A DNA stretch of 64,000 bases, from NCBI GenBank assembly GCA_030220185.1, contig JASPKZ010005706.1, positions 62,001 through 126,000 on the forward strand, read 5' to 3'. Shown one piece after another: positions 481 through 54,219 of the stretch. The translations under genes and the position numbers were made by a program. Under the pieces are notes generated by a model, which did no database searches, was not told the DNA's origin, and saw nothing but the letters and a program-made list of their open reading frames with translations. The first letter of the stretch is position 1; the number at the start of each line of letters is the position of its first letter. This DNA comes from Diploptera punctata. Lineage: Eukaryota > Arthropoda > Insecta > Blattodea > Blaberidae.

Positions 481-636
481 AAGTTATTAATATTTTTTTT
501 TATATTATATTTTAACATCAGTAAAAATAAAATCACAATAAGTGTTAATATTAAACTTTTATAAGAAAAAATCACTATGAGGTTTAATTTAAGATTAAAT
601 TAAAATGCTTCATACCTCACCTCATGTCCAGTCTTC

Positions 637-684
637 TAATTATACTGCATTTTCAAAAGCCTTGGCAGCTTCATCTTCAATAAT
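637..684 (-). ncRNA. degenerate hammerhead-like motif, left arm of H1
   Basis: On the minus strand the order is TTGAAGA, a stem-loop with GAAGC and GGCTTT, GAAAA and then GCAGTA. C3 is T and the GAAAC is altered, so this copy is probably inactive. It is the inverted partner of the better copy at 852-896. Confidence 0.4.
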
Positions 685-851
685 ATCTCGTCGACCGATG
701 TTATGTCGATCAGAAGAACTTCTTCCCTCTGTTGGTGGACCGATAAACCTCCGGATCCATGAACTTTGAAATTCCCACGGATTCTGAATGGATCCAGAGG
801 TTTATCAGTCCACCAACAGAGGGAAGAAGTAGTTCTTCTGATCGATGAGAC

Positions 852-896
852 ATTACTGAAGATGAAGCTGCCAAGGCTTTGAAACTGCAGTATAAT
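852..896 (+). ncRNA. hammerhead-ribozyme-like motif, H1
   Basis: The core is CTGAAGA at 856-862, stem II with AAGC (865-868) pairing GCTT (876-879), and GAAAC at 881-885. A TGCA loop and GTA follow, giving the minimal stem III (A-U, C-G) typical of Penelope-type hammerheads. ATTA (852-855) can pair with TAAT (893-896) as stem I around the predicted cut after 892. The first stem II pair is a T-T mismatch, so activity is uncertain. Confidence 0.5.
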
Positions 897-1257
897 TAGA
901 AGACTGGATGTGAGGTGTGGTATGAAGTATTTTAATTTAATCTTAATTGTTTATATATTTATTATTACATTATGAGCTCAACCTCTGGATTGGGGACACG
1001 AGGCCAGAAGATGAAGAATACATGCATTATGCATATTTTTACATAATTTATAAAGCATCCCAGTGTAGTGATGTTCACCTTACTTGTGCTAATGCCACTG
1101 GGTGCTGACTGACCAACTGACTCCTCCTTTCTTACTTCATTTTCTGCTTGCATATACAATGGTCATGTAATTTGATTAATAAAAGTGTCCACATAATTGT
1201 ACTTTTATTTAATTTCTTATTCCTCTAATGCATATTAACCTATGATACAGGTTGTCA

Positions 1258-1948
1258 AATAAAAATTTTTAGTGTTACAGCTAATGCCTTCTTTAACAAA
1301 AGAATATTTCAAATTTAATATAGAAATATCAATTAACAAAACTAAAATTATGGCATTTCATGGGAATGACCCCATACAAAGTAAAATCTGTCTCCAGAAT
1401 AAAATTTTAGAGAGATCTAATCAATTTAAATACCTTGGATATTATCTCTCTATCTGGGATGAAAAAGATATCCCTGAAAAAATTAGTAGTTATAATAAAA
1501 GTTTAGGAATTATTAATCAAGTTATGAACCATCCCTTGTACAAAAAAACACCAGATTATGTTTATATAACACCTTGGCTAGACCAGTGTTGACCTATGGT
1601 AGTGAAGCATGGACACTAAAAAGACAACAAGAAAGCAGAATAACAGCTTGTGAAATGAGATTCATGCGCAGAACAGCAGGTTACACCAGATGGGATCGGA
1701 AAAGGAACACCGATATCTTAAAAGAATTGAAGACTATGCCAATTTTGGAATATATTAAACAGTACCAACTAAATTGGAAACACCATCTTGAAAGAATGAG
1801 TTCAAATCGGATCCCCAAAGCTGTTTATAATTATATACCAAGAGGACGAAGATCACTGGGCCGTCCTATGAAATGCTGGAGGGAAAATTTTCTATAGGAT
1901 CGTAACAGGCCTTGGCCTAATACTTGGAAGGAAGAAGAAGAAGGACAT
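1258..1948 (+). pseudogene. 3' end of a non-LTR retrotransposon (RT C-terminus)
   Basis: Two overlapping reading frames (1272-1592 and 1574-1897) hold the end of a LINE RT. Recognisable pieces are INKTKIMAFHG (after the RT palm), YLGYYLS, VLTYGSEAWTLKRQ, CEMRFMRRTAGYTRWD and RGRRSLGRPMKCW. The frame changes near 1575-1590, so the ORF is broken. The copy ends at a short (GAA)n run near 1932-1947, the 3' tail type shared with the LINEs at 11495 and 22691. It is 5'-truncated and belongs to the same broad family as the LINE at 29364-31798. Confidence 0.85.
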
Positions 1949-2303
1949 AAAATATTTTATTCTGTTGAGAATACATTCTGACAATATTATAAATCACCTG
2001 CTGAAGCTCAAAACATTTTTATGAATGCAAAATTCAATGTTGTTAAGTTTTTTTTTATCCACTTATGTTTCAGTGTTGGCAGATATCATGAAATCACATT
2101 AATAACTTAGGGCCACATACAAATACATTAGTCTCTACTCAAATTACTTCCAATCACTGGTGAGCTGACTCACCATGAGCAATTGCTGAGATCGAATTAA
2201 CGGCCGACTTACCGGTCATGCATGAAAGTCAACGTTTTCGTAATATTGGCAACGAATTACCCAGAATTCTCAGCGATAAAACCACTTCTGTTATTTTCAT
2301 CTG

Positions 2304-2516
2304 CTATATGAGGAACGCATTTACGCTTGCGGTCCGCAAATAATACCGTATACAACGATGTCTGCGTTGCGCAATATTATGCCGATTCTCCTGTTCTTGC
2401 AGTTGAATTCTTTGGTAGACTCTATCAAATTCCTCTTCTCCGCGTATACCGAAAACATGATCGAAGTCTTCAAGGTCCGACATCTTGGATAAAGCTGCAA
2501 AGGTTTCAAACTCCAT
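2304..2516 (-). CDS. unidentified short ORF (70 aa)
   Basis: An ORF starting MEFETFAALSKMSDL is rich in charged residues (EEEFDRVYQRIQLQEQENR) and has more GC and a more coding-like composition than its flanks. I do not recognise the family. A first part of a transposase or a host exon are both possible. No poly-pyrimidine or donor signal convincingly bounds it, and no second exon was seen. Nothing else is recognisable in about 1950-2860. Confidence 0.25.
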   Translation of the reverse strand: MEFETFAALSKMSDLEDFDHVFGIRGEEEFDRVYQRIQLQEQENRHNIAQRRHRCIRYYLRTASVNAFLI

Positions 2517-2864
2517 CGGTTCCCTTCGGGATTTTCACGATAAGTTTCTATCTTGAGCTATGATCTTAAGTTAAATTCAGGTAGCTTACAATTATTATTG
2601 CATGAATAGATTTCTGAGTAAGCAAAATGTATTAGGATAAAACTTTCTCAGCAGAGAACGCCTTTTACGGTCTAATGCATTTATAAATTCGACCTGTGTT
2701 ACTGATAATGATGTTGAGTGTTGTTAAAATGTTAACTTTTACATTGTAATTGTTATAATGCAATGAAGACTAGCTTTAGTATCAGTATTTGATTATATTT
2801 TCCAGACTGTTGTAACTTATTAAGTTTTTAATATTGGTAATAGCACCCATTGTAGCCAAATTAA

Positions 2865-2980
2865 TATCCTCATTATCCATGCAAGTATTATGCTTATGTG
2901 GCTTATTAGGGTCTCAAATAGGAATTTTCCATCCAGTGCTTTTTTGGACGTCCTAGCGGCTAATACTATGAATTTCTAAT
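2865..2980 (-). mobile_element. LINE 3'-end scrap
   Basis: The stretch (CCATCCAGTGCTTTTTTGG, then CGTCCTAGCGG) matches the 3' region of the LINE at 60865-61345 (CAGCACTTTTTTGGAGGTCC). It is a short 5'-truncated copy without coding potential. Confidence 0.5.
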
Positions 2981-3116
2981 AATTTACTCCAAATGTAATT
3001 TCTTGATATATTAACTCTTTATTTACTTTTTATCTTGATGTTCATAGTCTTCTTTATAATTTCAGAATTCAATTTGAATTAGTTCTGCAGAAAAAAATAT
3101 CCCTATAGACATTATA

Positions 3117-3430
3117 GTCCACCGCTGTTGTCTAGAGGTAGCGTGCTCCTTGTCATGCAGCAGGCCTGGGTTCGATCCCCGGTCAGCGCAGTTTTTCTGG
3201 GTGAGGTTTTTATCGGGTTTTTCCTCACTTGTAAGACAAATGTCAGGAAAACATTAAGGCCCAAACGGTCCCCAAAATCATATGGCCATCATCATCATCA
3301 TCATCATAATCATCATCCTTCACCGGTGTGGAAAGCAACGGGAAGTTAACCACACCTACAATTCCCTAGTAAAGCTGCAAGCATAGCAGTGAAGGACCTG
3401 CCTTCAGGCAGAATTACTATGAATGGGTGG
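3117..3430 (+). mobile_element. tRNA-derived SINE, family 1
   Basis: A tRNA-like head (about 3118-3190) has TCTAGAGGTAGCGTGC as box A region and GGTTCGATCCCC as box B. A conserved body follows (TTTTTCTGGGTGAGG, CCTCACTTGTAAGACAAATG, AAGGCCCAAACGG), then a CAT-rich microsatellite stretch and the 3' part ending GAATGGGTGG. A 12-bp target-site duplication, ATAGACATTATA, lies at 3105-3116 and 3431-3442, so the 314-bp copy looks complete. Other copies are at 21808, 42475, 56906 and 60298. Confidence 0.9.
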
Positions 3431-3597
3431 ATAGACATTATATTTACAATTAAAAAATAAATTTTTAACCATGCTCTTACTATATGACTACTTTATCTGT
3501 GGGAAGAAATTGAATCATAGAGATGAGAGTTGGTCAGTCAGGGCTGTGTTTTCTAATATGCTAGAGTTTCTATAGATTTATTTATTACTGATGTTTT

Positions 3598-4150
3598 TTT
3601 ATTATTCATTTCATACATCTCAATGATGGATAAATCATATTTGAAGAGAAAAATTATACATTCAAACCAGGACTTGAACCCAGAACCTTTGGCTTTCTGG
3701 GCCAATACTCTACCAACTGAGCTACCTGAGCGAGTTCCAATCTAAACGCAAATTTTTCTCTTATATATGTTGTTAATTTCCGCACACCAAATGCTATGAA
3801 ATCTTCGTTTCTAACTTTGCAAATGGTGGCTTCTTTATTAAGAAGACATTTTTATTTGGGAATTTTTATATTACATTATAATGCCAGTATGGCTTCTTTC
3901 GATGTTTTTATTATTCATTTCATACATCTCAATGATGGATAAATATTATTTGAAGAGAAAAATTATATGCTCAGACCATCATTGAGATCTTTGAAATGAA
4001 TAATAAAAACATCGAAAGAAGCCGTACTGTCATTACAATGTAATATAATAATTCCCAAAAAAAAATGTCTTCTTAATAAAGGAGCCACCATTTGCAAAGA
4101 TAGAAACGAAGGTTCATAGCATTTGGTGCACTGGAATTAACAACTTATAT
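3598..4150. repeat. tRNA-like foldback element
   Basis: Arms of about 170 bp at roughly 3765-3937 and 3980-4150 are inverted copies. Markers are CACCAAATGCTATGAA and CTTTGCAAATGGTGGC on the left and their complements on the right. The left side also holds a minus-strand tRNA-like module at 3666-3738 with box B (GGACTTGAACCCAG) and box A (CTACCAACTGAGCTACC). The family is the one seen at 4446-4610 and 12780-13881. Confidence 0.65.
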
Positions 4151-4189
4151 TGTATTGTATTGTAAGCCCATGTTTTCCCTTTATAGAGA

Positions 4190-4445
4190 TTTAGGTGCTC
4201 TTCCCCTACAGGGAAGAATTTGAACCATACTAATTTAGTTACACTTGTTTTCGTATAGATGTCATTTTGAGTGGTCCATGGTCAGCGTTCCGCCTCATAC
4301 TGACATCTAGGAAACCAAGGTAGTACTAGGACGGGAAAATTCGGTAAATTTTGCTTAGAGGCCTTTTCATTCAGACTTAAGGACTTTTTACGAGCCTGAA
4401 AATCTTCAGACTCGGGACCCACGGCTTAAAGTCCCTCCGGAGAAC
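4190..4445 (-). mobile_element. SINE-like repeat, family 4 (fragment)
   Basis: On the minus strand the copy contains GGAGGGACTTTAAGCC, CCCGAGTCTGAAGAT and CTCGTAAAAAGTCC. These match the repeats at 35345-35690 and 57335-57660. The tRNA-like head is not visible here. Confidence 0.55.
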
Positions 4446-4610
4446 TTGCTCCTTGAATTTTTCAACGTATATAAGAGAAAAATTTGCATTTATATCGGAA
4501 CTCGCTCAGGTAGCTCAGTTGGTAGAGTATTGGCCCAGAAAGCCGAAGGTCCTGGGTTCGAGCCCCGGTCTGAGCGTATAATTTTTCTCTTCAAATATTA
4601 TTTATTATTG
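4446..4610 (+). repeat. tRNA-like module with inverted borders
   Basis: A 72-nt cloverleaf-like sequence at 4504-4575 starts GCTCAGGTAGCTCAG and ends CCCCGGTCTGAGC. The acceptor ends GCTCAGG and TCTGAGC pair mostly. The anticodon loop CCAGAAA would give AGA, but there is no Ser-type long variable arm and position 33 is C, so it is not a normal tRNA. Borders AGAGAAAAATTTGC and ATAATTTTTCTCT are inverted. Confidence 0.6.
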
Positions 4611-5635: not shown

Positions 5636-6535
5636 CATCATTATCATCTACAAGGTATGGGCCTATTGATGTGTTCCACTCCCTGCTGCACAATATGCTA
5701 CTGGTCTTCCTTTCAACATTGTTTTGGTCTTCCTAGATTTCTTCGGCCTTCAGGTCTATAATGAAGCAGCTGTTTTGATAAACAATTATTTGGCATTCTT
5801 TGTATATTAAGTTATGTAGATAGGAAATAACACTATGAGGTTCTTTAATATTGTTTATTTTTTATTATTTCACTCACCTCATACTTCATAATTCATAGCA
5901 GACCCTGGGTTTCTTCACATAATTTGTGACATTGTCAATGCTGCGTCACGTTCACAACTGACGTCCAACGGCCTTCTATCCTGCAGACTGACCTCCGCGC
6001 CATCTGGTGGCCGACCGAAGAATTTCCAAATCAGTCCTCTTTCTTTATAACCGGGTATTTCAAAATTCATAGTTGTATTTTCATTCTTGCATATGTAAAT
6101 TTTTTCCCAAAAAAAAAAATTTACATATGCAAGAATGAAAATACAACTATGAATTTTGAAATACCCGGTTATAAAGAAAGAGGACTGATTTGGAAATTCT
6201 TCGGTCGGCCACCAGATGGCGCGGAGGTCAGTCTGCAGGATAGAAGGCCGTTGGACGTCAGTTGTGAACGTGACGCAGCATTGACAATGTCACAAATTAT
6301 GTGAAGAAACCCAGGGTCTGCTATGAATTATGAAGTATGAGGTGAGTGAAATAATAAAAAATAAACAATATTCTTTGTATATGTTCAAAACATTTACATT
6401 TATTTCTGTATATTCTCTCATTTAGATTATGTACTTGCAATTTATCTCTGATATCTTGACTTCTCTTTCGAACTCTTGAAGATACTCCTGCAACGGATCT
6501 CAGAAATCTCATTTCTATAGTTTCAATTTTATGTT
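5636..6535 (-). pseudogene. LINE 3' fragment split by a hairpin insertion
   Basis: Minus-strand segments 6383-6535 and 5636-5794 join across the hairpin into one LINE C-terminus. The first encodes MRFLRSVAGVSSRVRKRSQ and the second the GRRNLGRPKQC region. The order and spacing match other insect LINE tails in this window (MRFMRRTAGYTR, then GRRSLGRP). Confidence 0.75.
5808..6369. mobile_element. Penelope-type hairpin element H2 with 13-bp TSD
   Basis: The arms (about 5848-6105 and 6112-6369) look essentially identical over about 255 bp by eye. A 40-nt tail (5808-5847), including GGAAATAACACTATGAGG, lies only on the left. An exact 13-bp duplication, ATTCTTTGTATAT, lies at 5795-5807 and 6370-6382. 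The arm interior can be read as WKFFGRPPDGAEV, like the end-of-ORF peptide in other hairpins. Read outward, each arm ends TATGAGGTGAGTG. The near-identity suggests a recent insertion or ongoing correction between arms. Confidence 0.8.
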
Positions 6536-13197: not shown

Positions 13198-13204
13198 TTT
13201 ATAT

Positions 13205-13881: not shown

Positions 13882-14469
13882 ATGGGAACTAGTTTTCAAG
13901 AGAAACATCTCTCTCATTTTCAACCGACATTATGACTACCGGCTTTTCATTGGAATCTCCATCAATAACGTTGCCATCTGGTGTTGATTTGATGAACTTC
14001 GAGATGTCATGTTCCTAGGAACATGGGATGTTAGAAATATTAATATGGGATTTAGATAAATCACCCTTGGATATAGTCACTGTACAGGAGAAGGTAGTCA
14101 GGAATCAGGAAGCTTTACATTACACTATGAGGGTGCACAGCAAAATCTGAATTCTGAATGGGCTTTTAGTTTGAAGGATCCTCTCAGCTATCCAAGATGT
14201 TAAGTTTGTCAGCGATAGGATATCATACATAATTCTAAAGACTAAACAACATGATTTTGTAATTTATAATGTACATGGTTCCACAGAAGATAAGGATGAC
14301 AAGATGAAGGGAGTGAGAGGGAGGAAACATGTAAAATCAAAATGACCAGTATCAGTGTCCAATCCACACTAAGTTAAGCTGATTGATGACAGTCCTGCTG
14401 ACATTTAAACCCAAGTTTGACCCTTCATAGCCCTAGAAGCATGATGAGAAGGGGTGAAAAATAACATTG

Positions 14470-14732
14470 AACTTTTATAGGTAAAATCACTATGAGGTTT
14501 AATTTAAGATTTAAATTAAAATGCTTTACACCTCACCTCATCCAGTCCTCTAATTATACCAGTTTCAAAGCTTAGGCAGCTTCATTTTCAGTAATTTCTT
14601 ATTGACATAACATTAGTCTACAGGAAATTACTGAAGATGAAACTGCCTAAAGCTTTGAAACTGGTATAATTAGAAGACTGAATATGAGATGAGGTATAAG
14701 GCATTTTAATTTAAATCTTGAAAAATAACATG
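14470..14732. mobile_element. Penelope-type hairpin element H3
   Basis: Arms of about 110 bp (14492-14605 and 14628-14730) are inverted copies, and the cap CACTATGAGGTTTAATTTA is on the left only. It is a shorter relative of H1 (shared CTAATTATACC, GCAGCTTCAT and ACCTCACCTCAT). Read outward, the right arm has the core at 14626-14671 and then GATGAGGTATAAGG. Confidence 0.7.
14626..14671 (+). ncRNA. hammerhead-ribozyme-like motif, H3
   Basis: AATTA (14626-14630) can pair with TAATT (14667-14671) as stem I. CTGAAGA is at 14631-14637, a stem II with weak AAA/TTT pairing follows, and GAAAC is at 14657-14661. TG and then GTA (14664-14666) complete the minimal stem III. All invariant core positions are present, and stem II is the weak part. 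Confidence 0.55.
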
Positions 14733-14831
14733 TTCAAAATTACTGATATTAGTGTCTAATTCTAGTTTTTGGAATTGCTAAGCTGATTGGTGACAAGAAG
14801 AAAATTGGAATACATAAATATGTGATAATGA

Positions 14832-14991
14832 TTATATTATTTTTAGTCTGATCGTCTTACCTCAATATTAATGTTGATTGTTTTGAAACATGTCCAAGAA
14901 CAATCAACATTAATATTGAGGTAAGATGATTAGACTAAAAATAATATAATTAAAATAACCTCAAAATATCACTTCCTAAAATTAAATATTA
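14832..14991. mobile_element. Penelope-type hairpin element H4 with 12-bp TSD
   Basis: The exact 12-bp repeat ATGTGATAATGA at 14820-14831 and 14992-15003 flanks a 160-bp insertion. The arms (CGTCTTACCTCAATATTAA and its inverse) surround GAAACATGTCC, a remnant of a GAAAC-AT-GTC element without its CTGANGA half. The one-sided tail is on the right here (AACCTCAAAATATCACTTCC), so the element lies in the opposite orientation to H2. Confidence 0.75.
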
Positions 14992-15149: not shown

Positions 15150-15297
15150 TTATGTAGGTAGGAAATAACACTGTGAGGTTTATTTTAATTTTGTTGTTTC
15201 TTGACTCACCTCATACTTCTTAACTCCTGGATTTCCGGATCTGCGAGGGAGTTAAGAAGTAAGAGGTGAGTCAAGAAACAACTCAACAAAATTTTTA
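15150..15297. mobile_element. Penelope-type hairpin element H5
   Basis: The cap GGAAATAACACTGTGAGG is followed by arms of about 48 bp (15181-15228 and 15247-15295) with GACTCACCTCATACTTC and its inverse AAGAGGTGAGTC. The loop TGGATTTCCGGATCTGCGA has no hammerhead core. No TSD was found. Confidence 0.6.
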
Positions 15298-16159: not shown

Positions 16160-16492
16160 TTATGAAGATTTCCAGGCTGTTAGCCGTGATCTTGAGGCTT
16201 GAAGTTCCCCGACGTTTCGCCTCAAGGGTTGTCTTGAGATTGGCAATTTTGTCGACTGCCTGCCCTATTTACACCATTCACCACGATGTGTTCTCTTAGA
16301 CAATTTATGACAGAATGGACTGCACAGAGAACACATCACAGTAAATGGTATAAATAGGGCAGACAGTCTACAAAATTGCCAGTCTCAAGACAACCCTTGA
16401 GGATGCCAGACGCAATCTGTGGCAAAACGTCAGGGAACTTCATGCCTCTAGACCACAGCAAACAGCCTGGAAATCTTCTTCAAGATCTTCAT
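16160..16492. repeat. hairpin element H6
   Basis: Arms of about 150 bp (around 16163-16300 and 16325-16490) pair through AAGATTTCCAGGCTGTTAG, CCCTATTTACACCATTCAC and their inverses. Minus-strand GGCGAAACGTCGG and plus-strand CTTGAGGATGCCAGAC to GGCAAAACGTC form a hammerhead-like order in which C3 is T. The shared TGAGG motif of the other caps is not obvious, so this may be a different Penelope-type family. Confidence 0.55.
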
Positions 16493-28200: not shown

Positions 28201-28829
28201 CAACCGATCTGACCAAACTACCCCATACCCAATGAAGTTACCTCTATAACGACCAAATTACCACTAGCTAATATTACTACCTCTATAAAGACTGCCACTA
28301 AACCAATTAAACTAGCTCTAAAACGAGAAATTACCCATAAACCGATCAAGCTACCTCTAAAACAAAATTACCCTAAAACGATCAAATTGCTATAAACCAG
28401 CCAATTTACCTTTTACCCGACCAAACAACTGATATTATCGATATAATTTTTTTTTATTTTTTTTTACTTATTTAACTAAACATAAAAACACAGTTAATTC
28501 ATTTATGTGTAACAGCACATGCTGGGTATTGGCTAGTATGAGATAAATGTAGATGATTGAATTTGTACAATAATATCTATTTCTGCATTTTGATAACTGA
28601 TATATTCAGAAATACTAACAATCTGTCAAAAATTCATTACAATTCCATCCAACAACATAAACAAAAATATTTTATGAATTAAATGGCGTTTCAACTTCAA
28701 TTACTCAGAGCAAAACTAGAAAAAAATGTGAGAAACTTGAGTAACCTAAGAAGAAAATTATGAGTGTAGCCATATTTTTGTTACGTACTACTTAATAAGT
28801 ATTTCAATATGAATTTTTAGTCATAGTGA

Positions 28830-28990
28830 TATGGGAAATAACATTATAAGGTTCTTAATTCATAAATTAATGAGTCATTTTTTTACATCTTTACCTCGTA
28901 TTTTATGTTTTTTTAAACATGGGAACTGCAGTTTTCAAAAGGACACATCCCTTTCATTTTCAACTGACATTTTTAGTCCCTTTTTTCTCA
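28830..28990. mobile_element. single-arm Penelope-type end
   Basis: The cap GGGAAATAACATTATAAGG is followed by ACATCTTTACCTCGTATTTT, AAACATGGGAAC and TTTTCAAAAGGACACATCC. This is the uninterrupted version of the unit split at 12719-14005. On the minus strand TTGAAAATGAAAGGG, GTCCTTTTGAAAACTGCAGTT gives a degenerate hammerhead order (G8 replaced by A). No second arm is present. Confidence 0.5.
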
Positions 28991-32624: not shown

Positions 32625-32860
32625 AGATTATTAGATGGTGCTATTCTTATATCACACGTGGTAACCACAGATGAAGATTATCATCCAACCAGTATAAAGG
32701 TGACATGGTTAGTATGTTGGATCCTTCAGCCATTAGAGCTTGTTTTCTCGAGGAACCATTATTTTAATAGCAATCCAAATTCTCATGATATGGGTGGGCT
32801 TTAGTCCCATACTGACTAAATTAACATGAGGAAAATTGGGTAACATCTACTTATATTTAA
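32625..32860 (-). mobile_element. SINE family 3 fragment (no tRNA head)
   Basis: The segment shares GGTGACATGGTTAGTATG, CAGCCATTAGAGC and GGGTGGGCTTTAGTCCCATA with the full copy at 33157-33507, in the same orientation. The head is absent. Confidence 0.65.
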
Positions 32861-32956
32861 ATTAATATTGGGAAGTAAACATTATGAGGTTATATCATTA
32901 ATAGTGAGTGCAGAACATATTTTTAACGACTCACCTCATATGATTTCAAATGTCTT

Positions 32957-32999
32957 TGATACCGGCGGTTTCAGACAATATCTTGTCCCTCTTCAGTCA
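32957..32999 (-). ncRNA. hammerhead-ribozyme-like motif, H8 left arm
   Basis: On the minus strand: CTGAAGA (complement of 32990-32996), stem II GACAA-GATA-TTGTC with perfect 5-bp pairing, GAAAC (complement of 32968-32972), a CGCCG loop and GTA. Stem I is short (TGA with TCA). All core residues are present. Confidence 0.6.
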
Positions 33000-33156
33000 T
33001 GGCTTCCACTGATGAAATTCTATGGTTGTTGATTTCTCTAAGGACATCTGCTGCCATCTTTGGTTGGGATTATAAACTTTGTAATTAAATTTTTATCCAC
33101 CAGAATATCGAAATTCATAGATCGATATTTATTCATCTGAATGAATATATTTTCCC

Positions 33157-33507
33157 GATTCCCGATTGAGGGTCTTTCCACTTTTCAGCGGTTGCCCTTT
33201 TACCAGCCGGCTGCTGGCCCTTCACATCCACATGTGTCAATCACAGAGGTAGATGATCAACAGCCAGTGTAGGGGTGACATGTGGTTAGCATGTCGAGTC
33301 CCCCAGCCGTTATAGCTGGTTCCTCAACCTGGAGCCGCTACTTATTGTAGCTACCCAATTGTCTCACGATGCTGGGTGGGCACCGGTCCCATACTGGCCG
33401 AAATACCACGAGAAAATTTCTTCCCCCATGGAGACTCGAACCAGCGCAAGTCCCGTAGCTCTGCGCCAAGGCTTCCTGCCTTAACCGCTCGGCTACGGCG
33501 CAGGACT
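33157..33507 (-). mobile_element. tRNA-derived SINE, family 3, with TSD
   Basis: TATATTTTCCC is duplicated at 33146-33156 and 33508-33518. The minus-strand head has CCGTAGCCGAGCGGTTAAGG (box A) and GGTTCGAGTCTCC (box B). The body includes CTCGTGGTATTTCGGCC, CCACCCAGCATCGTGAG and CTAACCACATGTCACCCC. About 351 bp; the most complete member, inserted into one arm of hairpin H8. Confidence 0.88.
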
Positions 33508-33798
33508 TATATTTTCCCAAATTGTCAATTTCAACGGTTTATCCAATTGTTTCAAAAGTTTAAGAACATCATAAAATTGAAAGAGAGGCAAAACTTTTGA
33601 AATAATTGGATAAACCGTTGGAATTGACAATTTGGGAAAAGATATTCATTCAGAAGAATAAATATTGATCTATGATCTTCGATATTCCGGTGGATAAATA
33701 TTTAATTACAAAGTTTATAATCCCAACCAAAGATGGCAGCACAAGAGGTGGTGTCCTTAGAGAAATCAACAACCATAGAATTTCATCAGTGGAAGCCA

Positions 33799-33841
33799 TA
33801 ACTGAAAAGGGACAAGATATTGTCTGAAACCGCCGGTATCA
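33799..33841 (+). ncRNA. hammerhead-ribozyme-like motif, H8 right arm
   Basis: CTGAAAA at 33802-33808 (G8 changed to A), the GACAA/TTGTC stem II, GAAAC at 33826-33830 and GTA at 33836-33838. It is the mutated partner of the intact-looking copy in the left arm. Confidence 0.5.
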
Positions 33842-34080
33842 AAGAAATTTGAAATCATATGAGGTGAGTCGTTAAAAATATGTTCTCCACTCACTATTAA
33901 TAACTTCTTCTTATTTATGTCTTACATATTGTAGCCACAAGACAAATGTAAGATAAGCATGAATAATTTTTATTAATTTTTAAGCATAAGACAGATCAGT
34001 TGGCATAGATAAATGAGAGTTTGTGTGTTAGATCTAAAACAGCATAAAGGAGTGATGTCTAATAAATTATCAAAAAATTG

Positions 34081-34436: not shown

Positions 34437-34648
34437 ATTTAGTGATTAAATAAAATAAAACCGTTAAAGTTCTATACGATTTTCATAGTTATTCAAAAAT
34501 ATAAACTCGTTACAGCTGTTTCAGTACACTGTACCTTCTTCAGACAAGTATTCGTCTGTAACGAAACAGCTAACGAGTTTGTATTAGAATAAATATGAAA
34601 ATCGTATAAAACTTTAACAGTTTTATTTTTATTTAATCACTAAAAATA
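34437..34648. mobile_element. Penelope-type hairpin H9
   Basis: Arms 34439-34536 and 34560-34646 pair through TAGTGATTAAATAAAATAAA, CTATACGATTTTCAT and AACTCGTTACAGCTGTTTC with their inverses. A hammerhead-like core lies in the left arm (minus strand); the right arm retains GTAACGAAACAGCTAACGAG. The usual cap and a TSD were not found. Confidence 0.65.
34506..34548 (-). ncRNA. hammerhead-ribozyme-like motif, H9
   Basis: On the minus strand: CTTGT and ACGAG form a 5-bp stem I (one G-T pair). CTGAAGA is the complement of 34537-34543; stem II is AGGTAC-AGT-GTACT with one bulge; GAAAC is the complement of 34518-34522; then AGCT and GTA. This is the most complete fit in the window, with all three stems and every core residue. 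Confidence 0.65.
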
Positions 34649-35690: not shown

Positions 35691-36136
35691 ATCACTGAGG
35701 CTGTTAAAAGTTAAATATTAGAAAGAGTAATATAGTCTAATTTATAAATTTTTTATTACCTTGTATACTACCATTGTCCTCAACTATAATGTTTCTATTT
35801 AAAATTTTTTGTTGATTTCACTCTAGGCCTTTCGAAGCATGCTTCATCTTCTGTAGTTGTTATAGTAGTATTGAATTATATGTATATGTCTAGTAGAGGG
35901 TTTTGCTTATTAGGCATATTTTCATTGAGAATGTTTGTATTCTTGGCCTCCTTGATAATTTTGATTTCTTCTAAGGTGTTATAATTATATACAGAGAAAA
36001 CAACAGACACAAAATTAACATCTAAGAAGAAATCAAAATTATCAAGGAGGCCAAGAGTACAAACATTCTCAAAAATATGCTTAATGAGTAAAACCCTCTA
36101 CTAGACATATACAGATAATTCAATACTACTACAACT

Positions 36137-36174
36137 ACTCCAGAAGATGAAACATGCTTCGAAAGGCCTAGAGT
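36137..36174 (+). ncRNA. hammerhead-ribozyme-like motif, H10
   Basis: ACTC (36137-36140) pairs with GAGT (36171-36174). CAGAAGA at 36141-36147 has A instead of U4, so activity is doubtful. Stem II is formed by GAA and TTC with further weak pairs; in the left arm it reads GAAGC-AT-GCTTC. GAAAG (36161-36165), GC and CTA (36168-36170) complete the pattern. Confidence 0.45.
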
Positions 36175-36243
36175 GAAATCAACAAAAATTTTAAATAGAA
36201 AGATTATAGTTGAGGACGCCCTCCATGGTACCTTTACCTTGTC

Positions 36244-37297: not shown

Positions 37298-37328
37298 AGA
37301 TGATTCTGTAAAATATGAATTAAAAAAC

Positions 37329-42703: not shown

Positions 42704-42740
42704 GGAATGGAATATATACTTACTTACTTACTCACTGGCA

Positions 42741-44396: not shown

Positions 44397-44449
44397 ATCC
44401 CCATTTTCATTCCGAATTATGTTTGTTCTAGCCTGAAACCCTTTCTTCT

Positions 44450-45778
44450 CTATACTAATTCCCTGATATAATTCTCTAATGTTCCTATTTTTGCATTCAT
44501 TTCAAGATCATTAATCTTCTCTCTCAAATATTCCCTCTTTTTACTCTTTAGTAACTTGGTGGTTTCCCGTCTAACACTACCCAATTGCTCTAAATTTACC
44601 TCATTTGGCTCGTGTAACCATTTCATTTTTGCTAGCTTTCTTTTCTTTACAATGTCGGCACATTCCTCATCAAACCATTTCTTGTTTTGCCTCTTTTTTA
44701 AACAACCAATGCTTTCTGATGCTGACAATTTAATAGTATCTCTTATAGCCTCCCATTCTTTATTTATATCAGTTTCTTCTTCGTTTGCCACATTGTCATC
44801 TGAAGATTCCAGTACTTCAAATCTATTAGCAATTTTGATTTGGTATTCTTGCCGCATTTCATCATTTTTCAAGTTTTTTAATTCATATTTTACAGAATCA
44901 TCTTTAGCGTTTGTTCCTCTCATAAGCGATAGCCGTTGTCTGATTTTCACCCTGACCAGATGATGATCTGAATTGCAGTCTGTCCCTCTAACTGATCTAA
45001 CATCAATGATGCTACTGTGCCAGCGTTTATCCACTAATACATGATCTATCTGGTTCCGAGTTTCTCCATCTGGGGACGTCCAGGTGTATTTATGAATATC
45101 CTTATGCTGAAATGTTGTGCTCTTAACAATGAGATTCTTTGATGTGGCAAATGTGACTAATCTAACCCCGTTGTCGTTACTATCTTCATGAAGACTGAAT
45201 TTGCCTATTGTTGGTTTGAATATATCTTCCCGCCCCACTTTTGCATTAAAATCTCCTAAGACAATTTTCATATGATATCGTGAAAGGCTATCAAATAAGC
45301 ATTCTAATTCTTCATAGAACTCATCCTTGATCTTGTCATCTTTATCTTCTGTGGGGGCATGTACATTTACAATTATAAAATCATGTCGTTTACCCTTTAG
45401 AATTATGTATGATATCCTATCACTAACAAACTTAATATCTCGGATAGCGGATAGGATCCTCCTTCTGACTAAAAAACCCGTTCCAAATGCAGGTCTTTCT
45501 GCACCCCCATAGTATAATGCAAAGCTTCCTGATTCCTGACTACCTTCTCCTGGCCACCTAACTTCCTGTAAAGCGACTATATCCAAGGGCGATTTATCCA
45601 ATTCCCGCGTTAATATCTCTAGTGCCCCGCTATTGTATAAAGTCCTAACATTCCATGTTCCTAGGAACATGTCCCTGTGTTTGAGCCTTTGGCATGGGTT
45701 CCCTGAAGTAGTCCCCGCCCGGAGAACCGAATGGGGGACTATTTGACCTCCGGAAAATTTTACCCCAGTAGAACCCAT
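44450..45778 (-). CDS. RTE copy B endonuclease and linker (442 aa)
   Basis: AP-endonuclease motifs are in order: GTWNVRTLYNSGALEIL (near residue 40), ALQEVRWPGEGSQ, VNVHAPTEDKDDKIKD, VLGDFNAKVG (near 172) and NSDHHLVRVKIRQR (near 270), then the linker KKWFDEECADIVKKRK. The last 11 or so residues are out of frame after the A-run slip near 44490. The endonuclease would nick the target DNA strand. Confidence 0.93.
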   Translation of the reverse strand: MGSTGVKFSGGQIVPHSVLRAGTTSGNPCQRLKHRDMFLGTWNVRTLYNSGALEILTRELDKSPLDIVALQEVRWPGEGSQESGSFALYYGGAERPAFGTGFLVRRRILSAIRDIKFVSDRISYIILKGKRHDFIIVNVHAPTEDKDDKIKDEFYEELECLFDSLSRYHMKIVLGDFNAKVGREDIFKPTIGKFSLHEDSNDNGVRLVTFATSKNLIVKSTTFQHKDIHKYTWTSPDGETRNQIDHVLVDKRWHSSIIDVRSVRGTDCNSDHHLVRVKIRQRLSLMRGTNAKDDSVKYELKNLKNDEMRQEYQIKIANRFEVLESSDDNVANEEETDINKEWEAIRDTIKLSASESIGCLKKRQNKKWFDEECADIVKKRKLAKMKWLHEPNEVNLEQLGSVRRETTKLLKSKKREYLREKINDLEMNAKIGTLENYIRELV

Positions 45779-45956
45779 GTCCGCATTTCTTGACGGTTGT
45801 ATTTTTACGGTGAAAGATCGTCACTCTTTCGACCAAGGTACTTATTTCGTCTGGCTTATCACCTTCGACCAGTCCGGCATGGGTAACCCTATCGGCAGCA
45901 ATGCTACCGCCGGCATAGCTCTCACGATCATTTAAGCACACAAGCCACTCCACCAC
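45645..45956 (-). CDS. RTE copy B short upstream ORF (103 aa)
   Basis: It starts MVEWLVCLNDRESYAGGSI and differs from the copy A version at only a couple of residues. It overlaps the endonuclease ORF in another frame. Function unknown; possibly a small ORF1. Confidence 0.5.
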   Translation of the reverse strand: MVEWLVCLNDRESYAGGSIAADRVTHAGLVEGDKPDEISTLVERVTIFHRKNTTVKKCGHGFYWGKIFRRSNSPPFGSPGGDYFREPMPKAQTQGHVPRNMEC

Positions 45957-46129
45957 GACAAGGTAAAGATACCATGGAGGGGGAATGGAATATATATATA
46001 TCTTTTTTAGTCTGTTTCAGAAGTGGCAGCCATGATTAAAATCAGGTTGAATATTGAAGGGTGGATAAATACTGTTTTCAGAAAACACTGTTAATTTGAA
46101 AATAAAGATCATGTTGGTACTTACCAAAC

Positions 46130-46782: not shown

Positions 46783-47145
46783 TATTAAATATAAAATTGG
46801 TATGTGGTAAGTCAGTCTCCTCAACTAAATTATTAAACTTCATCAAGTAGTTCCAAGTAGTTGGAACTAATGTTTTATTTTAGGAAGTAATATTTTGAGG
46901 TTCTTTTAATCAAATATTTAATCAAGTTCGAAATACTTGATGAAGTTTAATAATCTAGTTGATGACGACTGACTTACCAGATACCAATTTTATATCTTCT
47001 TCTTTTTCTTCTTCTTCTTCTTCTTCACTGGCCTTCCTAGATTCCTTGAACTTCTTGGCTTGTAGTTAAATGTTGCTTTTGGTAATCTTGTTACAACAAT
47101 TTTATATTTAATATATTATTACATAACCTCAAGGGTGCTTTAATA
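46783..47145. mobile_element. Penelope-type hairpin H11 with nested LINE tail
   Basis: Left arm 46785-46850 (GGTATGTGGTAAGTCAG, AAACTTCATCAAGTA) pairs with right arm 46931-46995, continuing after the LINE at 47097-47125. The loop holds a second cap copy (GGAAGTAATATTTTGAGG, 46881-46900). The right flank has ACATAACCTCAAGGG, an inverted tail. Confidence 0.6.
46996..47096 (-). mobile_element. 101-bp LINE 3' tail with 11-bp TSD
   Basis: CAATTTTATAT is duplicated at 46985-46995 and 47097-47107. The insert is a (GAA)n tail followed on the minus strand by GAATCTAGGAAGGCCAGTG, the coding end (LGRP). It is a complete insertion event of extreme 5' truncation. Confidence 0.8.
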
Positions 47146-48159
47146 TGAATTTTAAAAGTATTAACTCATGTTAGGCAAAGTATATTGATGGTGTATGGTG
47201 AAAATGCTTTCAAGAATAAAAAAAATCCTATACTCTATTTAATGTTATTACTGAATTATGAATATGAAATATAAACAGGTGATACTTAAACACGGTACTT
47301 TTTGTCTGCAACTCTTCTATATCCAGGTAATTTTTTTGGTTCAATTCACTTATATATTTTATGTGTGCCAAGCCTCAGAGTAATCAGGATTGTGATATTG
47401 GGTACCAGTAATTCAAAACAATTAATACATGTTGAACTAATTTTATTGAACTTAAATTCAATAAATACATAATTCCATTAAATTATTACTCAGCTAACAT
47501 AAAAATATATTTCTGAATTTAATTTGCATTTTAAATTACTTAATATTTATATACAATTTTTTTACCATGAGCAAGATTTAAATAATAAATGTTTAGGCTG
47601 CACCCTTAGCCCTTCCCCTTTAATTTGTCGCTATGATTGAATATATTGGAGAATTGCAGAGAGTTGAATCCTGGGACATTATAATTAGGTTTTACACTAC
47701 CAGTTAAGATAAAGTATTTAAACTTATTCTAAAAAAACAAGATCTTTTTAAAGTTATTTCTTAATTTTATTTTTTATTCTTGTATAATTCTGTACCTCAG
47801 AACCATATTGCATGTCCAGATATGCTGACTTTGTGATATATAATATTCTTGTATTTCTCAGACTATAACTTAGTAGTCACAGTAGTTCATGTGATCTATA
47901 AAAATACAATATTTTAATTTATCTTCAGTTTATGTAAATACTCTGACACTAAACAACATGAACTGGCAAGTATAACAATATAATATAGTATCTCAAAGTC
48001 TGCAAACATGACATAAGATGGTACAGTTATAGGATATAAAAATAATTTTGTAAAAAACCAGTTTTACTTTAAGAATGGCATTTAAGAAGTTAATTAATTA
48101 GAATATATCTTTGTAGTATTAAATAAATATGTTTGTAATGGTAAAAGAAATGAAGGAAA
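47146..48159. other. no identified gene
   Basis: AT-rich sequence without recognised elements. Confidence 0.35.
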
Positions 48160-49240
48160 TAAGTTAGAATTTGGAATATACAGAAAGAAGATATAGATAA
48201 TTGTATTAAAGCTTCAGAATTTAATCTCATTGCTCACAAAGAAGCAGTTTTCAATAGTCTGACACACAGATTAGTAAACACACCCATGAAAAGAGATTAT
48301 TATGATAAAGAAAAATGAATACCTAATAAATATTTGAGGCCAACCGGAACCTTTATGAATATTATAATAATTACACACATATTATAGAAACATTATTTAA
48401 TTCATTTATTATTCTTACACCAAACAGGATCAAATAATCCTATAGGATTAAATAGAAATATTGATAAAATCCCCTTCCATCCTTACTTTTCTATTAAAGA
48501 CACTTTAATACACTAGCAATAGATAATGGGTTTAAAGAAAGCATGATACACAGAAAAAAAACAAATAAGTTCAAAAGACAAAAATTAATCAATAAAAATA
48601 CATTTCAGAAACAAGAAGGAGGAAATATAAAATTTAAGATGTTTACATATCCATTGAAGCATCACTAAGTTTAAAAAAAAATTCAAAAAGTTCAACATAA
48701 GATTTGCACCAAAAAAGACTTTAACCTCAATAGAATAATAAAATCCAACAAAAACGGGAGAAGAAAATAAATCAAATATTTATTAGATAAAATGTGGAGA
48801 TTATGATAAAATCTACATAGGGAACACAAAAAGAAATTTGAAAATCAGAATGAAGCAACATCTTAGAAATGTTAAAATGGAGAAGTAGGAAAAATCTCAT
48901 ATTCTTTGATTATATTTTTCGTTTCTGCAGTAGGCACTCATGCTTGGTCAAAAATACATCAAATTGAAAGAAAGGCCAAATTAATAAAACAGACAGAAAA
49001 ATCTAAAGAATTTATGGTTTGAGAGAAAATCTACATTCAAAAAATAAGGAAATTAATAAATTTTGAAATTCCTGGGGAAAGTGATTTAGTTTGGTGGTTC
49101 ATTGGTCTACCAACAGATAGAGGAAAAAGCCATGCATCACCATGAAATAACAATGTTGGAATAATTATTCCGAAACCAGTCTAAAAAAAGACAAAATATG
49201 AGGTGAGGTGATTATTTATAATATTAAAAAAATTGTATTG
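48160..49240 (+). pseudogene. Penelope-like retroelement, RT end and GIY-YIG
   Basis: FGIYRKKIDNCIK and HKEAVFNSLTHRLVNTPM (48170-48300) are the end of a Penelope-type RT. KTNKFKRQK follows near 48560. About 48790-48870 encodes CGDYDKIYIGNTKRNLKIR, the GIY-YIG endonuclease. After the ORF comes EIPGESDLVWWFIGLPTDRG (49065-49125), then a hammerhead-like end and AATATGAGGTGAGGTG. Stops and frameshifts make it inactive. It links the hairpin elements to a coding Penelope-like element. Confidence 0.85.
49135..49190 (+). ncRNA. hammerhead-like 3' end of the Penelope-like element
   Basis: The palindrome GGAATAATTATTCC would form stem II, directly followed by GAAAC (49172-49176), CA and GTC (49179-49181). 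The CTGANGA half is damaged (ATGAAATAACA). Position and order match the hairpin cores. Confidence 0.45.
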
Positions 49241-50714: not shown

Positions 50715-51230
50715 TTATTTTAGAAAGAAAAATTATCACTTGACCGGGATTTGAACTCTGCATCTCTGACTCTGCATGTCATCCAAACTCCGATACAAAC
50801 ATCAATAATTCTTTCCACTTATACAACTCTTAAAAGTAATGTATAAATTCTCAATAAAAATACTTTGAATAGAAGTCGTCAGATGGCATTGTTGGTAACG
50901 ATGGCTACCGGTCTTCTGATGAAGGAGAGTTGTATAAGTGGAAGGAATTGTTGACGTTCGTATAGGAGTTTGGATGGTGTAATCGGTATCATACTGACAT
51001 GCAGAGTCAAAAATCCGGGGTTCAAATCCTGGTCCAAGCATTAATTTTTCTTTAAAATCATTAGGAAGTAACATTATGAGGTTTAATTTAATAATTGAGT
51101 TTGTTTTTTTTAACATTCTTACCTTATATGTCCAACTAAACAGTCATATGATCAATTATTAAATTAATTTTTCTTCCTAAAATAAAACTGTTCAATTCTG
51201 GAAAATGCTAATTTAAAATATAACATCAAA
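50715..51230. mobile_element. tRNA-like foldback element with 12-bp TSD
   Basis: ATAGAATCTCTT is duplicated at 50703-50714 and 51231-51242. Inverted tRNA-like modules lie at about 50742-50795 (minus) and 50966-51040 (plus), the latter with GGTGTAATCGGTATCAT (box A) and GGTTCAAATCCTGG (box B). Between them are imperfect arms (CCACTTATACAACTCT and inverse). A one-sided tail at the right end (51180-51230) parallels the hairpin tails. It is interrupted by H13. Confidence 0.75.
51053..51162. mobile_element. Penelope-type hairpin H13 with 13-bp TSD
   Basis: ATTAATTTTTCTT is duplicated at 51040-51052 and 51163-51175. The 110-bp insert starts with a tail containing GGAAGTAACATTATGAGG and has short arms AATAATTGA and TCAATTATT, plus CTTACCTTATATG. 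It is the smallest hairpin and sits inside another foldback. Confidence 0.75.
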
Positions 51231-51796: not shown

Positions 51797-51960
51797 ATTA
51801 TGATAGGAAGTAACATTATGGGGTTCTTCTTAATAAATAAGGTGAATCCAGAATCATTTTACCTCATAAATTGTTGTTTTTATTTGAACATGTTTCGATA
51901 TGCCATGCACATCATCATCAGCTTGTCCAGACTAGCACTGGTTAATTCATTATAGAAACT
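51797..51960. mobile_element. single-arm Penelope-type end H14
   Basis: The cap GGAAGTAACATTATGGGG is followed by TTTTACCTCATAAATTG and GAACATGTTTCGATATGCC. Only one arm is present, with the hammerhead-like core on the minus strand. Confidence 0.6.
51880..51925 (-). ncRNA. hammerhead-ribozyme-like motif, H14
   Basis: On the minus strand: CTGATGA (complement of 51915-51921), stem II GATGTGC-ATG-GCATATC with seven pairs including one G-T, GAAAC (complement of 51892-51896), AT and GTT. Stem I pairing is not evident. The core residues are all consensus. Confidence 0.6.
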
Positions 51961-52088
51961 CTTGGTTTCTCTGAACACAATTTCTCCTGTTATTTATGTA
52001 ACTCCATGCAATAACTCACACACCAGAGTTATAATATCAAATAAATCTGTATCCTTCTTCACTTTTTCAAACAAGTTTTATTTCCCAT

Positions 52089-52316
52089 CAAGTTTTTTGA
52101 GACTGGGAAACATGTTACCTCAAATTAATGTTGATTTATTCTCGAACATGTTTCGATATATTCTTGATATCAGCTTGGGAAAGCTGATGATGATATAGAA
52201 GAATATATCAAAACATGTTCGAGAATAAATCAACATTAATTTGAGGTAAGATGTTTCATAGTCTCAAAAAAATTTGAATAAAAAGAACCTCAAAATATAC
52301 TTTCTAAAATAAACCA
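52089..52316. mobile_element. Penelope-type hairpin H15 with 12-bp TSD
   Basis: TTTATTTCCCAT is duplicated at 52077-52088 and 52317-52328. Arms carry GTTACCTCAAATTAATG and ATTAATTTGAGGTAAG, and TCGAACATGTTTCGATATA with its inverse. The one-sided tail is on the right (GAACCTCAAAATATAC). It is the same family as H4 (shared TTAATGTTGATT and tail). Confidence 0.82.
52180..52225 (+). ncRNA. hammerhead-ribozyme-like motif, H15
   Basis: CTGATGA (52184-52190), stem II TGATATA-GAAGAA-TATATCA, then AAAC, AT and GTT. The invariant G12 is lost here; the left arm retains it on the minus strand (TATATCGAAACATG) but has a damaged CTGATAT. Confidence 0.5.
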
Positions 52317-52371
52317 TTTATTTCCCATATTTAATTTATCTATGAAGTTTTAGTCAAATTAACGATTTGTC

Positions 52372-52599
52372 CTTTTTTTTCTGAAAATGCAATAGGAAGT
52401 AACATTATGAGATTTTACTTATAACTAAGTTTTATCTGTGTATTCTTACCTCATGTGGTTATTTCTGTTGGACATATGTTTAAAGGCATGTTTGCCCCAT
52501 CCAGTCTGTTCTAGCTGAGGATGGGGCAAACATGCTTTGAAACATGTGACCTAACAGAAACAACCATATGACGTAAGAATACACAGACCAAACTTAATT
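52372..52599. mobile_element. Penelope-type hairpin H16 with imperfect TSD
   Basis: ATTAACRATTTGTC flanks the insert at 52358-52371 and 52600-52613 with one mismatch. The tail contains GGAAGTAACATTATGAG. Arms share ATTCTTACCTCATGTGG and GGCATGTTTGCCCCATCC with their inverses. Confidence 0.75.
52511..52552 (+). ncRNA. hammerhead-ribozyme-like motif, H16
   Basis: CTGAGGA (52515-52521), stem II region GGGCA-AACA-TGCTT, GAAAC (52539-52543), AT and GTG. The last base before the cut is G, which hammerheads do not cleave, so this copy should be inactive. Confidence 0.45.
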
Positions 52600-52864
52600 A
52601 TTAACAATTTGTCTTATTTGTATTTGATTAAATTTACTATTTTCAAGGTATATTCTCAACAGATAAAATTCTAATCTTCAAATGTGAATTTGGCTTTGCA
52701 TGCTAAACAAAATATGAGAATTTTCTTTTAGCTTTAACATGTGTTTTTTAAAATGTATTTGTGTACCATAATATTGTTTTTAGATAGCTCATGCAGAAAA
52801 TAGAAATTTCAACATAAAATAAAAACTTAATTTTATTATTATATAATGAGAGATTTTGAACAAT

Positions 52865-53590
52865 TTCTATTAATTATTACTGTCAGGCTTAGGCAAAGGC
52901 TTAAAGATGTTAGTAATTCTTTCCAGCTTTGCCGCTTTTAAAAGGTCTTTCAATTCAGATTGATATTCAGCTGTGAATTCAGCGATAGAATTCTTTATTT
53001 GGTCTTCAGATTTCTTGATGAATTGTACAGTTGATTCATTAGCATTGAAACAGTGTAATATAGATTCAAAAGACTCGTAAACGGTCAAGCATTTCTGTTT
53101 CTACTTTAAGCAGCAACACTATTTTTTTCCTCTTTAGAACTAATTTTCTTTCCTTTTACTGTGCATTATAAATTGGGAACAAAGCAGAAGAGACATGTGT
53201 TATTCAATTAAAATTATTGCAGTGAATGACAAGTTGAAACAATAAAACACCGATTGTGGTGAGGGTGGCATTTATCAACAGACATAGCGGCACATGAAAT
53301 ACGATGGCAGTGGCTTTTAAAAACGAACTTTAGGCTTAGTGACAATAAGGTTTGTTTTACTTTGATATTGCCCATTTGGTTTGAATCACTCTTTGTAAAA
53401 GCCACCTTGGCACGTGCCTGCAATAAAAAAAGTTGCCGATGCGTTAATAAAGGATACTAATCCTTCTAATATACCGACTGTATCTGCAAATATAGAAGTT
53501 TTTATCCGCGAATACAGGAACTATGTCACAATTTTTTAACCTGCGAATATTGAAAATGCGAATAAGGGAACCATGAATGAGCTTTTACTG
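52865..53590 (-). pseudogene. pogo/Tigger-like DNA transposon remnant
   Basis: At the right end the minus strand starts CAGTAAAAGCTCATTCATGG and TTCCCTTATTCGCATTTTC, next to TA (53591-53592), as in Tigger/pogo termini. The minus ORF 52870-53088 (YESFESILHCFNANE, then ERITNIFKPLP) resembles a pogo/Tigger transposase C-terminus ending in a short Phe-Lys-Pro motif. Most of the catalytic part is absent and the left end was not found. Confidence 0.5.
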
Positions 53591-53993
53591 TATATATGTA
53601 TTTATTGATGTCTGCATCAGCTAATTATTACTATTCTTGGATTACTTATATTTCCTATAAATGAAAACTGAATTTTGACTTATATATGTGGTGCAGTGTT
53701 CGTTTTTCTCAGAAAAATGTGGAAATAATATGAAATTAATAATTATAAAATTATATTAACATACCTTCACTAACATGTTAGGGAATGTATTATGATTGAT
53801 TATAAGCACATGAAGACAAATACAAATTTAGAAACCATGACAACCGTGGTGTAATGATTGATTTTAACTCCTAAATTGAAGCTGGATCATGTATTATCTG
53901 AAATATTCTTACTCAGATCAAAAGTCAACATTTCAGTCTTTCAAATAATATATAAAGTGATATTTTCAATCTCCAAGAGGACTTCCCATATAT

Positions 53994-54203
53994 ATTAAAT
54001 TAATGTTGGGAAGTAAACATTATGAGGTATAATCATTAAAATTCATCGGAGAACATTTTGTTTAAACAACTCACCTCATAGGATTCATGCTTCCATGATA
54101 CCGCGGATGAAGAACATGACTGTGTTTGAAACCGCGGTATCATGGAAACATGAATCCTATGAGGTGAGTTGTTTAAACAAAATGTTCTCCGATGAATTTT
54201 AAT
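53994..54203. mobile_element. Penelope-type hairpin H17 with probable 14-bp TSD
   Basis: GACTTCCCATATAT is at 53980-53993 and 54204-54217. The tail of about 41 nt includes GGGAAGTAAACATTATGAGG. Arms of about 65 bp have CAACTCACCTCATAGGATTC and its inverse and look near-identical. Part of the tail (TGGGAAGT) is itself inverse to the flanking ACTTCCCA, so the TSD call is slightly ambiguous. Confidence 0.78.
54100..54145 (+). ncRNA. hammerhead-like motif, H17
   Basis: ATGAAGA (54107-54113), a short stem, GAAAC (54128-54132), CGCG and GTA (54137-54139). Compared with H8 the segment before the core is shortened, so C3 and stem I are lost. The GAAACCGCGGTATCATGG side is intact. Confidence 0.45.
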
Positions 54204-54219
54204 GACTTCCCATATATTT

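Follow-up and report, generated by a model that had tools for sequence, protein, structure and literature searches.

One-tailed head-to-head hairpins derived from a Penelope-like element are an abundant insertion class in Diploptera punctata

A 64,000-nt stretch of DNA from the cockroach Diploptera punctata (contig JASPKZ010005706.1, positions 62,001 to 126,000; hereafter the window, numbered from its first base) carries a series of short inverted repeats that share one plan. Two arms face each other head to head, and a tail is present at one end only. Which element gives rise to such hairpins, and how can a palindrome acquire a single tail? An initial annotation had described them as about 15 non-autonomous elements of the Penelope type. 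The hairpins are a real, abundant class of insertions derived from a Penelope-like element (PLE). The PLE family itself is already known and its architecture is largely known as well; new are the scale, the geometry of the start sites and the overlap with a splice-like site.

Ten head-to-head hairpins are found in the window (Table 1). They consist of two inverted arms and a one-sided tail of 30-42 nt, and eight of the ten are flanked by a target-site duplication (TSD). In the sense of the RNA, an arm contains the end of the PLE open reading frame (ORF; in some copies), a hammerhead core or its remnant, the motif TATGAGGTRAG (the donor motif, resembling a 5' splice site between TATGAG and GTRAG), a loop, ACCTCATA and the tail. 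The loop between the donor motif and ACCTCATA measures 28-44 nt in 12 of the 13 tail arms and 74 nt in the atypical copy at 46783. In a palindrome scan, the inverted arms at 569, 5808, 14470, 14832, 15150, 32870, 52089, 52372 and 53994 score 112-1012, far above the top score of 42 in two shuffled windows. Local alignment gives an arm identity of 0.85-0.985 for these nine motif-bearing hairpins, and in all nine the tail is one-sided (14-19 of 20 positions match at the tail side, against 9-11 at the opposite side). None of the other nine palindromes of the window reaches the 99% level of the tail null (14); the one at 16164 is ambiguous, with 13 on both sides.

The outer ends are nearly constant. 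In all eight hairpins with a TSD, the tail is 30-42 nt long when counted from ACCTC, while the non-tail arm ends 5-12 nt before ACCTC. The TSDs themselves measure 12, 12, 13, 13, 13, 14, 14 and 14 bp; six are exact, the one at 52372 has one mismatch and the one at 32870 has two. When the flanks of all ten hairpins were permuted, including those at 569 and 15150 where the flank test gave no clear TSD, the observed sum was reached in none of 100,000 trials. Taken alone, the TSD at 51053 is nearly equalled by mismatched controls (12.5 versus 13). The centres are variable. Families and truncation points differ from copy to copy, and hairpins of the same family have different centres by eye (569 and 14470, 5808 and 15150, 32870 and 53994, 14832 and 52089). 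The unpaired centre matches the non-tail arm in five of seven scored window hairpins and the tail arm in one, with one tie; two of these seven assignments depend on a score difference of three points.

These results revise the initial list. Palindrome scores lie far above the shuffled top at 12 of its 15 places, and ten of the listed elements stand as hairpins. The entries at 28830 and 51797 are one-armed, and three others are of another kind or could not be placed in the set. The palindrome at 34437-34648 has a hammerhead core and lacks such a tail. The supposed element at 35745-39515 is mostly one LINE (long interspersed nuclear element) of an inverted pair, with the palindrome 35776-36217 in front. 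At 46783-47145 the leaders are arranged tail-to-tail rather than head-to-head; a later copy may have inserted at the end of an older one, and donor and tail pair there at five of eight positions. The one-sided tail was correctly recognized, as were the TSDs of 12-14 bp, and judged by these TSDs the limits given for the elements at 5808, 14832, 51053, 52089, 52372 and 53994 were exact to the base. The donor motif had been assigned to the outward ends and is in fact located about 35-45 nt inside them.

The same structure is found far beyond the window. In the 3.12 Gb of genome searched for motifs, the exact tail 14-mer AACATTATGAGGTT occurs 39,301 times, against 24 for the reversed pattern, and TATGAGGTRAG occurs 233,090 times, against 1,901 for its control. 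Sixty loci were sampled around part of the first 100 listed places of the 14-mer, all on contigs C1-C3, and contain 79 tail sites with enough flank (fetched loci carry L numbers below). An inverted mate scoring at least 30 is present at 45 of these sites, with reversed controls at 24 or less. The 45 sites represent 44 distinct hairpins, and 43 of these have exactly one tail. TSDs exceed the 95% level of the controls in 27 of 45 cases, compared to 11 of 360 controls. Hairpins can also be found via the donor motif instead of the index tails: 19 of 23 then have one tail, three have none and one has two (three of the 23 are window hairpins already counted). L073 and L074 being the same locus, the tailless cases come down to two places, and random stretches satisfy the tail criterion in 3.7% of trials; the two-tailed case, L080, is a leader running on into an ORF. 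If the ratio of 44 hairpins per 79 tails, extrapolated from three contigs, holds genome-wide, about 22,000 hairpins with the exact tail would be present. The tail scan of viral_contigs gave no match.

The hairpins are linked to a PLE by their coding content as well as by their ends. The GIY-YIG piece in the window copy at 48130-49240 matches PF01541 at 3.7e-6, above the curated cut-off, and the ends that the hairpins were said to share with this copy (at 48160-49240) are indeed shared. In pairwise comparison with the ORF end of the window PLE, the translated arm of the hairpin at 5808 matches at 3e-8 (18 of 34 residues identical) and that of the hairpin at 32870 at 6e-11 (25 of 62), while the arm at 569 reads NFEIPTDSEWIQRFISPPTEG by eye. 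The best PLE match, P0001, comes from Diploptera punctata, and at least 206 matches to it were scored in the genome. In L045, L078 and L080 the leader continues into the start of an ORF of the reverse transcriptase (RT) type, and in L080 a GIY-YIG match is found upstream of the leader, as judged from coordinates. None of the three is intact: L045 has a frame change after the start, L078 contains a second leader copy, and L080 is one base short compared to L078 by eye. L073 is a long head-to-head copy with an RT-type ORF behind an antisense tail arm, and L007 contains a tandem array (160-3199) with a unit of about 598 nt that includes the GIY-YIG end, the hammerhead and the donor motif. Several traits of an endonuclease-bearing PLE (EN+) are found, namely GIY-YIG and RT in an element that shares the ends, inverted pseudo-long terminal repeats (pLTRs), 5' truncation, tandem units, a one-sided tail of about 30-40 nt and a minimal type I hammerhead near the pLTR or ORF start. 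A fragment of mitochondrial cytochrome b apparently sits inside the decayed window copy as a nuclear mitochondrial insert (48340-48510, limits by eye). With a query made of the PLE and the inserted cytochrome b, 119 of the 120 listed matches were to cytochrome b, many from cockroaches and bugs.

The hammerhead-like cores noticed initially are present in hairpins of the set. Eleven core sites were found in the window, six of them inside the bases listed as elements, which make up 10.4% of the window. All four cores with stems I+III of at least six pairs (shuffles: mean 0.06, maximum 1 in 100 runs) are located inside listed elements, three in hairpins of the set and one in the palindrome 34435-34647. 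In the genome, family K has a cleaner-looking core by eye. By their sequence, the cores are predicted type I hammerheads. Rfam detected no hammerhead in the window, neither at the gathering cut-off nor at E up to 10, where tRNAs, microRNA-type hairpin models and some further weak hits were returned. In RNAfold, the hammerhead fold was not recognized as the minimum-energy structure of seven pieces.

The cores also serve as a landmark for the hairpin centres. Seventeen of 46 compared hairpins could be scored, matching references of families C and J, and two of the 17 supplied these references. L024-3253, L058, L070 and L060 remained below the score limit though C/J-like by eye, and their centres lie inside or past the hammerhead. 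The end of the longer arm is found 6-20 nt upstream of the hammerhead CTGA in eight of the 17; in the other nine it is at least 64 nt upstream, towards or into the ORF of the preceding unit. Of all 34 arm ends, 11 fall in a 16-nt bin, two in the 40 nt before this bin and six inside or past the core (the values -71 and -200 are alignment limits). The longer arm is the tail arm in five cases and the other arm in seven, with five equal or capped. An initiator-like CAGT is found at about the main arm-end position in the references. The point 6-20 nt upstream of the hammerhead is therefore likely to be the 5' end of the RNA, and the short hairpins look like copies of the leader alone. Hammerhead cleavage was considered as the source of the hairpin centres and is not favoured, as the ends of the short class are located upstream of the core. 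By eye, the ends of several shorter arms (14832, 53994, L025, L070) are found in the core or directly beyond it, and for these cleavage is possible.

How, then, is a one-tailed hairpin formed? Probably, each hairpin is a separate, dead-on-arrival insertion by the autonomous PLE, in which PLE RNA is reverse transcribed from the nicks in both strands. The PLE protein would nick the two strands 12-14 nt apart. Each 3' end would then prime reverse transcription at an internal site of the RNA, the two sites being about 40 nt apart: priming at start site 1 on one strand would give the tail, and the opposite strand would use start site 2, located 5-12 nt before ACCTCATA. Both cDNAs would extend towards the 5' end of the RNA, and joining of their free ends would yield the head-to-head palindrome. 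With no more than about 100-155 nt between the start sites and the apparent 5' end of the RNA, a monomer RNA would yield leader hairpins alone; arms that reach the upstream ORF end would come from longer, probably tandem, transcripts. Two separate priming events are suggested because the outer ends sit at two places of the template and because either arm can be the longer one. As families and truncation points differ between copies, separate insertions from PLE RNA are indicated rather than the non-autonomous family of the initial annotation. For a PLE of Anolis, both strands were shown to be cut and extended, with start sites inside the RNA that bound the tail (PMC11167929).

Several observations weigh against this scheme. 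The hairpin at 5808 has arms of 259 nt that are 100% complementary with 8 nt between them, and by eye the end points of its two arms within the ORF differ by no more than 3 nt; the hairpins at 52089 and L044 are nearly equal-armed by eye. Equal arms are what self-priming would predict. Copying one RNA stretch twice in a single event also needs two templates or strand displacement. The use of one start of each kind is apparently new and is unexplained, and the Anolis study describes no difference in start site between the strands (PMC11167929). In the genome sample, 34 of the 79 tails have no mate within 1.2 kb, L026 and L073 have no tail, and L056 (1324-1566) alone among the 44 distinct hairpins is tailed at each end (11-of-14 criterion).

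In self-priming, a single PLE cDNA would fold back at its 3' end and copy itself. This route was proposed for Penelope of Adineta vaga on account of palindromes at inverted junctions, with an antisense template being favoured there (PMC3846280), and the equal 259-nt arms and tiny centre at 5808 agree with it. It would, however, carry the tail into the second arm or run on into the target, while the second arm ends 5-12 nt before ACCTC in eight of eight cases, and the loop can derive from either arm. Self-priming is for these reasons an unlikely source of the hairpins. Still less probable, to the point that we would be surprised by it, is propagation of the hairpins themselves as a non-autonomous family, for instance as metazoan retrozymes carrying a type I hammerhead. 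Retrozymes of 170-400 nt have been described (PMC7229834), and short hammerhead-bearing repeats in very high number would fit this picture. Yet hairpins of one family have different centres by eye (shared centres were checked in the fetched loci), the arms at 5808 and 32870 encode PLE ORF ends, and the leader runs into the PLE ORF rather than forming a self-contained circular-RNA element. Long inverted arms with flanking duplications would also fit a DNA transposon with terminal inverted repeats (TIRs) or a foldback element. An origin from these is scarcely credible, as the ends are asymmetric with a single tail, the TSDs vary from 12 to 14 bp and the arms carry pieces of a retroelement ORF. 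A TIR transposon or MITE (miniature inverted-repeat transposable element) is refuted by its ends and coding content, symmetric termini and a fixed TSD length being absent. The variable TSD length, together with the RT- and GIY-YIG-bearing copies that share leader and tail, upholds the Penelope-type retro-origin of the initial annotation, and double priming by the PLE is retained as the preferred explanation.

The start sites of this preferred scheme lie between two splice-like signals. Donor and tail pair in 87.5% of cells, compared to at most 62.1% when slid, and the stem is likely real though not proven; its covariation is unconvincing, with 26 of 500 shuffles reaching the score, one compensatory pair in two cells and 11 of 13 rows distinct. 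The 5' half of this putative stem, TATGAGGT, overlaps the 5' splice site motif. In 11 representative donors (the non-tail donor at 14470 is not among them), strong conservation is confined to TATGAGGTRAG, and later columns hold at most 0.63 bits. Within GTRAG, R is A in six and G in five, A is found in 11 of 11 and G in nine of 11. TGAGGT was partly used to find the sites, so that its conservation is partly selected; RAG is unnecessary for the pairing with ACCTCATA. A candidate AG follows the GT after 79, 79 and 87 nt in L080, L078 and L045, at a distance of 7, 7 and 13 nt beyond start 1 with this site set at ACCTC+34; the ATG of the ORF follows 28-53 nt later. If these acceptors are correctly chosen, the predicted leader intron measures 79-87 nt in the three copies, and the distances from the start sites forward to its 3' end would be 7-13 nt and about 50 nt. 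With alternative AGs the intron would be 66-92 nt long, and the acceptors are weak by eye. Tentatively, both RT start sites could lie within this short 5'-leader intron, splicing would decide the fate of the RNA and unspliced RNA would be the sole template, a reading that we regard as possible without yet leaning towards it. Spliced RNA would in that case yield protein and remain uncopied, and intron retention in PLEs, already known (PMC3846280), would be explained without an antisense template. The start sites near the RNA 5' end would lead to monomer leader hairpins, and full copies would need tandem transcripts. A search of the open-access literature found no report of intronic start sites, and none of PLE hairpins without an ORF at such a scale.

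Known systems share part of this anatomy. Pen2a and other Penelope elements of Adineta vaga have inverted head-to-head pLTRs with a 31-bp tail on one, TSDs of 8-10 bp, palindromes at junctions and solo pLTRs (PMC3846280). In contrast, hairpins with little or no ORF are common here (44 distinct ones per 79 sites), the window TSDs are longer and the arm lengths look independent. Poseidon PAc of Anolis resembles the present element in the cutting and extension of both strands, the internal starts that bound the tail, the hammerhead just before the starts and the AT-rich targets (PMC11167929). Its start sites are located 111-118 nt into the ORF, whereas those found here precede the ORF, with the 5'-splice-like motif on one side and a candidate 3' splice site on the other; the available text of that study does not report that each insertion uses one start of each kind. 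Metazoan retrozymes are likewise short and abundant repeats with cores of the type I hammerhead (PMC7229834), while the copies described here are truncated PLEs and no separate circular-RNA element.

Table 1. Hairpins, related insertions and hammerhead cores in the window
Feature	Coordinates	Strand	Tail and arms	TSDs	Remark
Hairpin e569	589..946		tail left, about 545-584	no clear TSD	non-tail arm reads into PLE ORF end
Hairpin e5808	5808..6369		tail and two arms	5795-5807 and 6370-6382, 13 bp exact
Hairpin e14470	14468..14718			14455-14467 and 14719-14731, 13 bp exact
Hairpin e14832	14832..14991		tail right	14820-14831 and 14992-15003, 12 bp exact
Hairpin e15150	15150..15297		tail left; arms 15193-15282	no clear TSD	limits of the initial annotation
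Hairpin e32870	32855..33900		arms with PLE ORF end	32841-32854 and 33901-33914, 14 bp, 2 mismatches
Hairpin e51053	51053..51162		tail arm and non-tail arm of about 11-16 nt (by eye)	51040-51052 and 51163-51175, 13 bp exact
Hairpin e52089	52089..52316		tail right	52077-52088 and 52317-52328, 12 bp exact
Hairpin e52372	52372..52599			52358-52371 and 52600-52613, 14 bp, 1 mismatch
Hairpin e53994	53994..54203			53980-53993 and 54204-54217, 14 bp exact
One-armed insertion	28823..28968	-	tail arm alone	10-bp repeats 28813-28822 and 28969-28978 flanking
One-armed insertion	51797..51960	-	tail arm	no TSD established	hammerhead core starts at 51921
Two leader copies	46783..47145		tail-to-tail		not head-to-head
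Decayed PLE copy	48130..49240	+			RT-thumb-like piece, GIY-YIG piece, ORF end, TATGAGGTGAGG at about 49197
Hammerhead core, e569	856..895	+			end approximate
Hammerhead core, e14470	14631..14670	+			end approximate
Hammerhead core, e32870	32958..32996	-			5' start 32996, other end approximate
Hammerhead core in palindrome 34435-34647	34505..34543	-			palindrome without such a tail
Palindrome	35776..36217				degenerate hammerhead-like core by eye; right end adjoins LINE
Palindrome	16164..16478				other PLE-like family by eye; absent from the initial list

Other repeats surround the hairpins. The inverted LINE copies at 36219-39481 and 42721-45981 are 95-100% alike over about 3.2 kb with their 3' ends facing, and the latter contains endonuclease and RT domains. 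Two further LINE stretches (26464-27251 and 29367-30154) are 97-99% alike in direct orientation, 2.9 kb apart. SINE-like (short interspersed nuclear element) repeats derived from tRNA are found at 3560-4605 and 12778-13884, some of them in palindromes (3763-4150), and a 303-bp tandem unit at 13229-13883. The palindromes at 18607-19160 and 59333-59960 have MITE-like ends beginning with ACAGGGTG and AGGGTGGGCC and are without the PLE tail. Degenerate arrays of the AACCTAACC type at 27683-28178 resemble an eroded insect telomere-like repeat.

The hairpins bear on how the poorly understood PLE class moves. Two puzzles of these elements are addressed, namely the one-tailed, head-to-head inverted copies and the introns that survive retrotransposition; if the start sites are intronic, the second would receive a testable answer. 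The tens of thousands of tail copies constitute a natural record that is able to decide between double priming and self-priming. The hairpins may also feed small-RNA silencing, as Penelope small interfering RNAs have been suggested to arise from long inverted repeats (PMC3136932).

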